From an uncultured Alphaproteobacteria bacterium (GTDB lineage: Bacteria; Pseudomonadota; Alphaproteobacteria; HIMB59; GCA-002718135), in contig CACGZD010000001.1 of NCBI GenBank assembly GCA_902577425.1, positions 574,414-638,413 on the forward strand: a DNA stretch of 64,000 nt. The letters are read 5' to 3'. The notes under the pieces are model-generated. The model did no database searches. It saw nothing but the letters and a program-made list of their open reading frames with translations, and was not told where the DNA came from. The position numbers were made by a program, and so were the translations under genes. The number at the start of each line of letters is the position of its first letter. Position 1 is the first letter of the stretch. Shown here one piece after another: positions 23,996 through 27,416 of this stretch.

Positions 23996-24727
23996 CTAAA
24001 TTTTATAAGCAATATGTATTGCGACTATTCCATTAAATATATTTAAATAATAAGGGTTCATAAAACCGATTTTATTTAAAAATGAAATAAGTTTTTTTTG
24101 ATTAGGAAACTGGTCAATACTTTCTTCTAAATATTTATAGGCTTCTTTATTTTTAGCAACATTTAAACCAATCCACGGAATAACATTTTTTTTATATTGA
24201 TTATATAATTGTTTAATTAAACTAGACTCTGGCGAACTAAATTCAAGACAATAAAATACTCCTCCTGGTTTAAGAATTCTATAAGCTTCCTTTAATGTAT
24301 TATCAATATCAGTAACATTCCTTAGGCAAAAAGAAATTATATATTTATCAATACTACTATTATCAAAGGGGAGTTTTTCTGCATTTTCTCTAAGAAAAGT
24401 AATATTTTTATTTTTGTGACGTTTTTTTGAGTATTTCAACATTTTAGAATTTAGATCTACCGCATATATCCTATTATTTTTTTCAAGTTTTAATATTAGA
24501 TTGATTAAATCTCCAGTTCCTGAACCAACATCTACTATAGTTTCATTTTTTTGAATATTCATTAAATCTATAAGATCTTTTTTCCATAAACGATGTGATC
24601 CAAAGCTCATCAAATCATTCATTAGGTCATAATTTGATGCAACATTCGTAAAAATATCTTGAACAAGCTTAGTTTTTAATTTTGTTGAAACTTTTCTTTT
24701 GCCAAAGTTTGTTTTTAGATTATCCAT
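23996..24727 (-). CDS. ubiE: Ubiquinone/menaquinone C-methyltransferase
   Basis: SAM-dependent C-methyltransferase of ubiquinone synthesis (243 residues). It has SAM motif I DVGSGTGDL, the UbiE signature YDLMNDLMSFGSHRLWK and a second signature RILKPGGVFYCLEFSSP. It is divergent from mutM with only nine bases between start codons. In relatives ubiB (a kinase-like ubiquinone protein) usually sits between ubiE and coaBC; here coaBC follows directly. Confidence 0.95.
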   Translation of the reverse strand: MDNLKTNFGKRKVSTKLKTKLVQDIFTNVASNYDLMNDLMSFGSHRLWKKDLIDLMNIQKNETIVDVGSGTGDLINLILKLEKNNRIYAVDLNSKMLKYSKKRHKNKNITFLRENAEKLPFDNSSIDKYIISFCLRNVTDIDNTLKEAYRILKPGGVFYCLEFSSPESSLIKQLYNQYKKNVIPWIGLNVAKNKEAYKYLEESIDQFPNQKKLISFLNKIGFMNPYYLNIFNGIVAIHIAYKI

Positions 24728-24736
24728 ATATTTTAT

Positions 24737-25549
24737 ATGCCTGAACTTCCCGAAGTAGAAACCACTATTAGAGGTTTAAAGCCTATAGTTGGTTATAAAA
24801 TAATTAATATAAAAATTAATACCCCTAAACTTCGATATTTTATACCTAAAAGTTTATTATTAATAAATAGTGTTAAAATTACAAAAATAACAAGAAAAGG
24901 AAAATTTATTATATTTTACTTACAAAATAATCATTCAATAGTTTTTCATCTAGGAATGTCGGGAAGATTAAGGCTATATAAGAAACTTGATTTAAAAAAT
25001 AACAAACATGATCATTTTTTGTTAGAAATTAATAATGGAAGATTTTTAGTTTTTAATGATCCAAGAAGATTTGGTTTTATAGATTATGGATTATATAAAG
25101 TAATTAATTCAAGAAAATATCTTACTTCATTAGGAGTTGATGCTCTAAGTACTTCTTTAAACGGTCCCTATTTGTTCTTTAAAATTAGTAAATCAATTGT
25201 ACCAATTAAACAGATTCTATTAAATCAAACGATCATAGCAGGTATTGGTAATATTTATGCTAGTGAAATATTGTTTAATGCCAAAATTTCCCCTCTTAGA
25301 AGGGGAAATGACCTTAAATTACACCATTGCAATAAAATATCTAATTCTTCAAAAACTATATTAAAAAAAGCTATAAATGATGGAGGGTCTAGTTTAAGAG
25401 ATTTTGTTGCAATTGATGGAACATTAGGCAATTTTCAGAATAATTTTAAAGTATATAATAGAGAGGGTAAAAAGATATCTGGAAAAATAGTTAAAAAAAT
25501 AATTCAATATGGTAGATCCACCTATTTTTGTCCATCTATTCAAAAATAA
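24737..25549 (+). CDS. mutM: Formamidopyrimidine-DNA glycosylase with zincless finger
   Basis: Bifunctional glycosylase/AP lyase that removes oxidised purines such as 8-oxoguanine. The catalytic N-terminus PELPEVE is intact, as are the RKGKFI lysine and the helix-two-turn-helix region (NQTIIAGIGNIYASEIL). The C-terminal finger keeps its fold pattern NFKVYNREGK ... IIQYGRSTYFCP, including Arg260, but three of the four zinc-binding cysteines are gone and only Cys265 remains. The frame and length (270 residues) are normal, so this is not a truncation. Zincless fingers are known in NEIL1-type relatives. It therefore probably still works without zinc (inference). Confidence 0.93.
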   Translation: MPELPEVETTIRGLKPIVGYKIINIKINTPKLRYFIPKSLLLINSVKITKITRKGKFIIFYLQNNHSIVFHLGMSGRLRLYKKLDLKNNKHDHFLLEINNGRFLVFNDPRRFGFIDYGLYKVINSRKYLTSLGVDALSTSLNGPYLFFKISKSIVPIKQILLNQTIIAGIGNIYASEILFNAKISPLRRGNDLKLHHCNKISNSSKTILKKAINDGGSSLRDFVAIDGTLGNFQNNFKVYNREGKKISGKIVKKIIQYGRSTYFCPSIQK

Positions 25550-25622: not shown

Positions 25623-25883
25623 ATGGCAAATCATAAATCGGCAAAAAAAAGAAACCGACAAATATTAAAAAGAACTAGAATAAATAGCCAAGTATTTTCT
25701 AAGATTAGAACCAATCTAAATAACTTTAATAATCTGTTATTGGAAAAAAACAAAGCTGAATTAGATAAATCTTTAAGCTCAATTAACTCATCTTTAGCCA
25801 AAGCTCTAAAAAAAGGGCTAGTTAAGAAAGAATTTGTGTCAAGAAAGTTATCCTCGTTATCACAAAAAATTAAAAATATTTAA
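25623..25883 (+). CDS. rpsT: 30S ribosomal protein S20
   Basis: Small, lysine-rich 16S rRNA-binding protein (86 residues). The beginning MANHKSAKKRNRQ and the pattern LAKALKKGLVKKEFVSRKLSSL are typical of S20. It has its own promoter-like sequence and a terminator-like hairpin at its end, so it is probably a single-gene transcript. It lies between mutM and dnaA. Confidence 0.95.
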   Translation: MANHKSAKKRNRQILKRTRINSQVFSKIRTNLNNFNNLLLEKNKAELDKSLSSINSSLAKALKKGLVKKEFVSRKLSSLSQKIKNI

Positions 25884-25982: not shown

Positions 25983-25991
25983 TTTTGCACA
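25983..25991 (+). promoter_or_regulatory. Single DnaA-box-like site upstream of dnaA
   Basis: TTTTGCACA matches the relaxed DnaA box TTWTNCACA and lies 33 bases before the dnaA ATG, where autoregulatory DnaA boxes are often found. Only one such site was noticed, so this is not evidence for a replication origin. Confidence 0.3.
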
Positions 25992-26024: not shown

Positions 26025-27416
26025 ATGGAAGATTCTTTTTTGGATTTTAATGAAAAAAAATGGCCACTTCTAAAAAAGGATCTAAAAAAAATTGTTGGAA
26101 ATACTGCTTATAATAACTGGTTAAAACAACTTTCATTTATATCTAACAAAGAAAATACTATTACGCTTTCTGTACCAACAAAATTTCTTAGAGATTGGAT
26201 TGTTAACAATTACTCAGATAAAATAAAAAATGAATGTAATAAATATATTGATAATATTGAAGCTATAAAGTTTGTTGTAAAACCTGTGGGTGGTAGAGTA
26301 GTTCCTGGAACAACGAGAACAATAAAAAGTACTGATAATCAATGGAAAACAACTATGGATATTAGGTCCAATCAAACCTCTTATCCTACTGATTTTGGAG
26401 CCCCACTTGATCCGCGATTTACATTTGATAATTTTGTTGTAGGCAAACCTAATGAATTAGCTTTTGCTGCATCAGAAAGAGTTGCAGAGTCTGAAAAAGT
26501 TACATTTAATCCTTTATTTCTTTATGGAGGAGTTGGTCTAGGCAAAACTCATCTAATGCATGCAATAGGATGGAAAATAAAAGAGCAACAGCCTGAACGT
26601 AAAGTTATTTATTTATCTGCAGAAAAATTTATGTATCAATTTGTAAGAGCATTACGATACAAAGATACTTCAGCATTCAAAGAACAATTTAGATCAATTG
26701 ATGTTCTTATGATAGATGATGTTCAGTTTATTAGCGGCAAAGATAATACACAAGAGGAGTTTTTCCATACTTTTAATGCCTTAATTGAACAAAATAAACA
26801 AATTGTAATATCAGCTGATAAATCTCCTTCTGATTTAGATGGTGTACAAGATAGATTAAAATCCAGACTAGGGTGTGGTTTGGTAGCAGATATTCATCCT
26901 ACAACTTATGAGCTAAGATTAGGAATTTTAATTGAAAAAGCTCAAAAAAGAGGCGTTGAAATTCCTCCTAAAGTATTAGAATTTTTATCTCATCGTATTA
27001 TTTCAAATGTTAGGGAAATGGAAGGAGCCTTAAATCGTTTAGTGGCTCATGCAACTCTTGTAGGAACTCCAATAACAGTAGAAACAGCTCAAGTTGTTTT
27101 ACAAGATCTATTAAAAACTAGTAATAAAAAAATTACTATTGAAGAAATTCAAAAAAAAGTAGCTGAACATTTTAATATAAGGTTAACAGATATGCATTCT
27201 CCACGTAGATCGCGATCTGTTGCTAGACCAAGACAAATAGCAATGTATTTAGCTAAATCAATTACTTCGCGTTCTTTACCTGAAATTGGACGTAAATTTG
27301 GAGGAAGAGATCATACTACTGTTATGCATGCCGTAAAAAAAATAGAGGAATTAAAGCATAGTGATACTAATTTTAACGAAGATATAGAACTTTTAAAAAG
27401 ATTAATAGATTCTTAG
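26025..27416 (+). CDS. dnaA: Chromosomal replication initiator DnaA
   Basis: AAA+ initiator of chromosome replication (463 residues). Domain I covers about residues 10-90. The AAA+ core has Walker A GGVGLGKTHLMHAIGW and Walker B IDVLMIDDVQFI. The C-terminal domain IV has the DNA-binding signature FGGRDHTTVMHAVKKIE. It has one of the better Shine-Dalgarno sequences in the window (GAGGTGAT, about four bases before the ATG). It is followed by dnaN, recF and gyrB, the classic replication cluster. Confidence 0.98.
   Translation: MEDSFLDFNEKKWPLLKKDLKKIVGNTAYNNWLKQLSFISNKENTITLSVPTKFLRDWIVNNYSDKIKNECNKYIDNIEAIKFVVKPVGGRVVPGTTRTIKSTDNQWKTTMDIRSNQTSYPTDFGAPLDPRFTFDNFVVGKPNELAFAASERVAESEKVTFNPLFLYGGVGLGKTHLMHAIGWKIKEQQPERKVIYLSAEKFMYQFVRALRYKDTSAFKEQFRSIDVLMIDDVQFISGKDNTQEEFFHTFNALIEQNKQIVISADKSPSDLDGVQDRLKSRLGCGLVADIHPTTYELRLGILIEKAQKRGVEIPPKVLEFLSHRIISNVREMEGALNRLVAHATLVGTPITVETAQVVLQDLLKTSNKKITIEEIQKKVAEHFNIRLTDMHSPRRSRSVARPRQIAMYLAKSITSRSLPEIGRKFGGRDHTTVMHAVKKIEELKHSDTNFNEDIELLKRLIDS

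Follow-up and report, generated by a model that had tools for sequence, protein, structure and literature searches.

The formamidopyrimidine-DNA glycosylase (MutM) of the HIMB59 bacterium studied here is very probably the working MutM of its order, an enzyme that gave up its Cys4 zinc site in a single event preceding the divergence of the order's two families and that now carries hydrophobic residues there. The gene lies in a 64,000-nucleotide stretch of DNA that was analysed as a whole (the window). We propose that it is the usual bacterial MutM of a marine order of Alphaproteobacteria and that, judged by its residues, it would still act as a glycosylase/lyase on oxidised guanine. Its ancestral zinc site would have disappeared in place, hydrophobic residues would have taken over the first and fourth Cys positions, and, in place of a metal, a small core of hydrophobic side chains would probably hold together the beta-hairpin from which Arg260 reaches the DNA backbone. 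We infer three of these steps from sequence, namely the metal-free finger, the packing of I247 with I268 and the activity on 8-oxoG.

The window mutM (24737..25549, plus strand, as for all parts of the gene given below) encodes 270 amino acids in an open reading frame that begins with MPELPEVE and ends with NFKVYNREGKKISGKIVKKIIQYGRSTYFCPSIQK. A profile search with the Fpg N-terminal domain returned a single match in the assembled genome (1.52 Mb), which is this gene. Its product scored above both NCBIfam equivalog cut-offs (TIGR00577, 244.2 against 203.3; PRK01103, 272 against 212), and E. coli Fpg 1k82 is its nearest solved structure by sequence (E 6.5e-48). The Pfam C-terminal Fpg domain matched with an E value of 0.45 only, and the Pfam zinc-finger model reached 11.8 bits against a cut-off of 21.3. 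The catalytic N-terminus PELPEVE (24740..24760) is normal, as had been predicted: Pro2 and Glu3 are invariant in our alignment and present in 123/123 order members with the column filled (of 128). An H2TH domain occupies residues 132-222 (25130..25402; Pfam PF06831, E 2.1e-23). The 8-oxoG recognition loop region, whose role is described in passages of PMC3188539, covers residues 216-234 (GGSSLRDFVAIDGTLGNFQ; 25382..25438), with G217, G228, G231 and Q234 in 128/128 order members.

The finger itself spans residues 239-270 (25451..25546) and reads VYNREGKKISGKIVKKIIQYGRSTYFCPSIQK. Alignment with E. coli Fpg and relatives agreed with the original prediction that three of the four zinc cysteines are missing: the first position is I247 (25475..25477), the second Cys is lost from a knuckle with two residues fewer than that of C-x2-C fingers, and the fourth position is I268 (25538..25540). 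The sole remaining zinc Cys is C265 at the third position (25529..25531). The DNA-contacting Arg260 (25514..25516) is kept, again as predicted, and is Arg in 279/279 aligned sequences. According to passages of PMC9266487 and PMC4176347 the finger's Arg clamps a DNA phosphate, and the former describes it as the one conserved Arg that the Fpg finger supplies to the active site. The window MutM thus combines the family score, Pro2/Glu3 with H2TH, the finger Arg and the 8-oxoG loop with its flanking glycines, all of which define MutM/Fpg. It has one of the four zinc-binding cysteines that define a zinc-finger Fpg (BaFpg1, parts of PMC3188539), and it shares with the zincless-finger Fpg/Nei proteins a beta-hairpin kept without zinc ligands, the hairpin being taken from predicted models and the ligands from the sequence. 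By its family score the protein is a MutM, and by its ligands, as aligned, it is outside the zinc-finger Fpg class.

To determine how widespread the zincless finger is, we analysed 162 genomes of the order from two families. A MutM match was found in 132 of them, including 20/20 genomes with a completeness of at least 90%, and the finger was readable in 128. In the four others the frame is broken (G058), the gene is cut before the finger (G082 and G140) or the match stops at residue 194 (G118). The corresponding rows L108 (G058), L153 (G082) and L154 (G140) were left out of the alignment, as was L236, a fragment from G369, for which L235 supplied the finger; L208 (G252) has no readable MutM, and the gene that begins in L025 was read in L024, L025 covering its start alone. 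The mutM frame is broken near the finger in L108 (G058) and mid-gene in L103 (G007), by assembly error or decay. As outsiders we used 151 sequences, 89 from the same class, 55 from the same phylum and 7 titled loci. The class-level sample comprised 76 of the 241 matching genomes outside the order (246/289 genomes matched, 5 of those in the order), and 68 sequences were taken from a sample of the phylum in which 154/160 genomes matched. All finger counts were made on columns of one alignment of 279 sequences (128 from the order and 151 from outside).

The loss proved to be lineage-wide, the question for which an alignment of related MutM proteins had been suggested. All 128 readable order fingers hold zero (44 fingers), one (81) or two (3) cysteines. 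In the column of the first zinc Cys, 151/151 outside sequences have Cys versus 0/128 inside the order, a contrast far exceeding chance. The two families differ at the third position: family 1, to which the window belongs, keeps Cys in 81/83 fingers, whereas family 2 has it in 1/45 and Ser in 43, so that overall C265 is Cys in 82/128 order members and lost in 46/128. In family 2, 42/45 fingers are devoid of any Cys.

Outside the order, at least three finger cysteines were present in 151/151 sequences and at least four in 140. The first and third positions were Cys in 151/151. The original prediction had zinc strictly kept in MutM proper; this stands as far as passages of PMC3188539 go, which describe the four cysteines as perfectly conserved across bacterial Fpg clades, but at the fourth position only 127/151 sampled outsiders have Cys. 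In part, those without it carry an extra Cys in the first knuckle. Zinc-ligand spacing among L155-L236 and L262-L329 is plastic, with a C-x4-C first knuckle in 20/151 sequences and C-x2-C-x-C plus one later Cys in 12/151; by sequence, this looks as if one ligand had moved across the zinc site. Five outsiders (L167, L221, L264, L270 and L272) have three finger cysteines and no obvious fourth, and an Asp or His may serve as the fourth ligand there. Among the order and the 151 sampled outsiders, outright loss of the zinc site is confined to the window's order, and ligands otherwise shift within the class. Base composition differs little between some zinc-bearing loci and the window (GC 0.269): five loci of other Alphaproteobacteria with 26-28% GC (L181, L200, L228, L233 and L210) keep at least four finger cysteines each, and AT-richness alone is therefore not the cause of the zinc loss.

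Next, we asked what replaced the ligands. At the first Cys position all 128 order members have a hydrophobic residue (Ile 80, Tyr 35, Phe 4, Val 3, Leu 3, Met 2, Trp 1), and at the fourth 127/128 do (Leu 93, Ile 33, Phe 1; Lys in the remaining one). Positions 248, 249 and 267 are hydrophobic in 1-2% of order members, so AT-rich codon drift to Ile and Leu alone is no explanation. Since 38-46% of members also have a hydrophobic residue at positions 245, 246 and 250, the replacement is not confined to the old ligand places and was accompanied by other changes. Physically, this pattern is most simply read as I247 and I268 probably pairing in a small hydrophobic core, which would seal the finger at its end.

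Structure prediction supported the claim that the finger keeps its shape, with a confident hairpin in two AlphaFold2 models. The window MutM was modelled with a mean pLDDT of 91.8, block means of 95-96 for residues 241-270 and hairpin strands at 253-257 and 260-264. For a family 2 protein with a Cys-free finger (L089), modelled with 20 order sequences alone, the mean pLDDT was 90.2, and the same hairpin was predicted (strands 255-259 and 262-266, block means 92-93). In VIA-align searches, the top match of the window model was E. coli Fpg 1k82 (Z 34.7, rmsd 1.4 over 257 residues), and zincless Arabidopsis FPG 3twm (Z 27.1) and Mimivirus Nei1 3a45 (Z 26.6) ranked lower; the best 50 matches listed by Foldseek and by VIA-align were all Fpg/Nei enzymes. 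Since AlphaFold2 models no metal and has learnt Fpg structures, the models speak for a fit to the fold and not for stability free of zinc.

We thinned 204 full-length distinct proteins to 119 MutM rows and built a tree of the quick kind from them with the finger left out, supported by SH-aLRT only. The 38 order members fell on one side of a single branch (SH-aLRT 98), which requires one change of state, and a second tree of that kind, with 80 rows, again gave one order clade (SH-aLRT 99). Both trees place the order among zinc-bearing Alphaproteobacteria, with a backbone so weak that the sister group is unsettled. We then compared gene neighbourhoods. In the window, mutM is flanked on the left by a gene on the minus strand (23996..24727) that we take by recognition to be a ubiE-like methyltransferase, and on the right by presumed rpsT (25623..25883) and dnaA (26025..27416), both on the plus strand. 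Within the order, ubiE stands to the left in each of the 16 loci that include a left flank, and rpsT with dnaA follows on the right in 18/18. Six of 21 zinc-bearing loci show all three genes (L181, L200, L210, L216, L228 and L233), three have ubiE and rpsT and one rpsT only. In the other 11, which include five freshwater 'Rickettsiales/Rickettsia' MAG loci, the flank examined contained none of the window's five neighbours. The six syntenic loci suffice to place the zincless gene where the ancestral zinc-bearing one stood. Given one clade and the gene order ubiE-mutM-rpsT-dnaA in some zinc-bearing relatives, the simplest account is a single loss of zinc in place. Replacement of the gene by transfer from a eukaryote or a phage is not favoured by the position among Alphaproteobacteria (in trees without eukaryotic rows), by the six-locus synteny or by the separate clade of zincless viral proteins. 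A DnaA-box-like TTWTNCACA occurs once in the window (25983-25991), just upstream of dnaA, with 11.1 occurrences expected from shuffles.

Several other explanations can be weighed against a single loss with function retained. A sequencing or assembly error in one genome, which would leave the window alone among close relatives with four cysteines, is practically out of the question: 128/128 readable order genes from 128 genomes share the zincless state, and no two of the proteins are identical. Relaxed or decaying repair, in which the finger of a reduced genome drifts toward loss of function, had been offered as a cause. The small AT-rich genome, the additional loss of the third Cys in 46/128 fingers and the broken frame near the finger in G058 are in line with it, but the finger does not evolve faster than its surroundings. 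In 48 disjoint close pairs, the pooled dN/dS was 0.122 for the finger and 0.155 for the rest of the protein, a simple Nei-Gojobori estimate over a short finger stretch, compared descriptively. In the finger, every order member has V239, Y240, G259 and R260, and nearly all have S261 (125/128) and T262 (127/128); P2, E3, M74, R110, F112, N172 and Y174 are kept in the order wherever the column is filled. Together with the presence of mutM in every one of the order genomes that are at least 90% complete, these values make decay very unlikely; the window-type mutM is, by its pattern of conservation, not a decaying gene. Companion repair genes are also present in the same genome: Nth scored above its cut-off, the protein nearest to MutY stayed below the MutY cut-off (251.8 bits against 286.5), and a third HhH-GPD protein, which matched no NCBIfam model, was taken for AlkA-like. 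The purifying selection, the kept catalytic residues and these repair proteins do not bear out relaxed repair. It is also very unlikely that a metal is still held by C265 together with residues at non-classical positions, or is shared by two molecules. C265 in 82/128 fingers, a His at position 244 in 33/128 and a finger His in 33/45 members of family 2 may hint at a weak or non-classical metal site; against such a site, 44/128 fingers have no Cys at all, and the two families share no Cys/His position (His in 9/83 of family 1, C265 in 1/45 of family 2).

The original prediction also raised zinc saving, by which zinc would be stripped from dispensable sites since it is scarce in the open ocean. 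The lineage does look marine (HIMB59, formerly AEGEAN-169, belongs to the streamlined marine bacteria according to passages of PMC10308929), and one zinc site is gone. Yet we found six zinc-ribbon proteins with intact cysteines, RpoC, IleRS, PriA, AccD, a Fur-family regulator and a Zn_ribbon_4 protein, in 464 kb of the 1.52 Mb (400 kb of contig 1 plus the window), a scan for CxxC pairs that passes over proteins lacking them. The regulator is nearest to Zur yet below the Zur cut-off, and the IleRS finger belongs to a Pfam family that also covers MutM (17.6 bits against the cut-off of 21.3). MutM is a protein of low abundance, so the zinc saved would be trivial. Zinc saving is thus unlikely, and the intact ribbons speak against this part of the prediction. 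A further explanation would add a reason to the single loss in place instead of replacing it: a metal-free finger that is proof against oxidation and thiol attack may have been selected under sunlight and radicals. We regard this as possible but doubtful. It would fit the finger being kept with hydrophobic replacement rather than lost, and a second loss, separate from this one, among viral contigs of one clade, but zinc-bearing MutM persists in other AT-rich alphaproteobacterial lineages (f84 and f9). Passages of PMC4176347 describe how 2-thioxanthine oxidises the zinc thiolates of Fpg, expels the zinc and abolishes DNA binding in solution; the hairpin and the Arg260 contacts persist in the crystal after thiol attack, and zincless NEIL1 resists.

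A working MutM that lost its zinc in place resembles several known systems in part. With bacterial Cys4 MutM/Fpg (E. coli Fpg 1k82; BaFpg1, parts of PMC3188539) it shares the catalytic end, H2TH, wedge residues, 8-oxoG loop, equivalog score, a structural Z of 34.7 and the gene neighbourhood of six zinc-bearing alphaproteobacterial loci, and it differs in three lost zinc cysteines, two of whose places are hydrophobic, and in a shorter knuckle; family 2 has usually lost all four. Zincless fingers had been noted for NEIL1 and viral Nei, which is correct and extends to plant Fpg (passages of PMC9266487, PMC3188539 and PMC4176347). Arabidopsis FPG1 and other plant or fungal Fpg (PDB 3twk, 3twl, 3twm) are, like the window MutM, Fpg proteins with a zincless finger (parts of PMC9266487), but the window model is structurally nearer to bacterial Fpg than to 3twm. 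In the plant/fungal subfamily the specificity loop has 12 residues versus 23 in bacterial Fpg (PMC3188539, Table 4, among the parts of that paper drawn on here). The loop region of the window MutM, unlike theirs, aligns with bacterial MutM without a large gap. Plant and fungal Fpg are said not to excise 8-oxoG, reportedly in work of Duclos from 2012. NEIL1 and Mimivirus Nei1 (PDB 3a42, 3a45, 3vk7) also have a zincless finger, with a Z of 26-27 for MvNei1, but they lie on a different branch of the superfamily. Passages of PMC3188539 argue that the zincless fingers of NEIL1 and of the plant/fungal enzymes arose separately. The position of the order among zinc-bearing Alphaproteobacteria, in trees without eukaryotic or Mimivirus sequences, speaks for a zincless state separate in origin from both.

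By analogy, the MutM of this order fits the literature as a further, bacterial instance of a zincless finger; we found no report of a zincless bacterial MutM in the open-licence literature searched. An order-wide exception to the Cys4 rule, as worded in parts of PMC3188539, with syntenic zinc-bearing relatives is a clean case of dispensing with a structural metal. It bears on what must change, what must stay and, through the third Cys of family 1 versus family 2, perhaps in what order. It also separates the zincless finger from the short specificity loop with which it is joined in plant Fpg, which makes it possible to ask if losing zinc from the finger has by itself any effect on 8-oxoG excision. 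We predict that MutM without zinc resists thiol-reactive zinc-finger inhibitors.

Finally, a scan of viral contigs gave 33 MutM relatives. Nineteen of them (L337-L342, L344-L348, L350, L352-L355, L357, L358 and L362, on contigs of 22-434 kb) carry no more than one Cys among their 45 C-terminal residues; VYGRETCENGFEVVRELTRDGRTTHWVPEIQI is an example of their fingers. As in the order, the fourth Cys place is taken by Ile or Leu (19/19, by eye); unlike in the order, the third is Val (19/19) and one Cys stands near the first place. Thirteen different zincless viral proteins formed one clade (SH-aLRT 100) apart from the order in the 80-row tree, where long branches make their deep placement unsure. 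This separate clade most simply reflects a separate loss. The four zincless viral proteins that were scored all fell below the Fpg equivalog cut-offs. A hydrophobic core could thus have replaced the zinc of MutM at least twice outside eukaryotes, in the marine order and in large viral contigs, giving metal-free 8-oxoG glycosylases with bacterial substrate range that resist zinc-finger poisons and thiol oxidation; this is roughly as likely as not, and we propose it tentatively. Gp292 of Bacillus phage G, the top annotated phage match to a zincless viral protein among the matches listed, has four finger cysteines. One further viral-contig protein (L334) scored above the Fpg cut-off and has lost the first-knuckle Cys while keeping CPIC and a further Cys.
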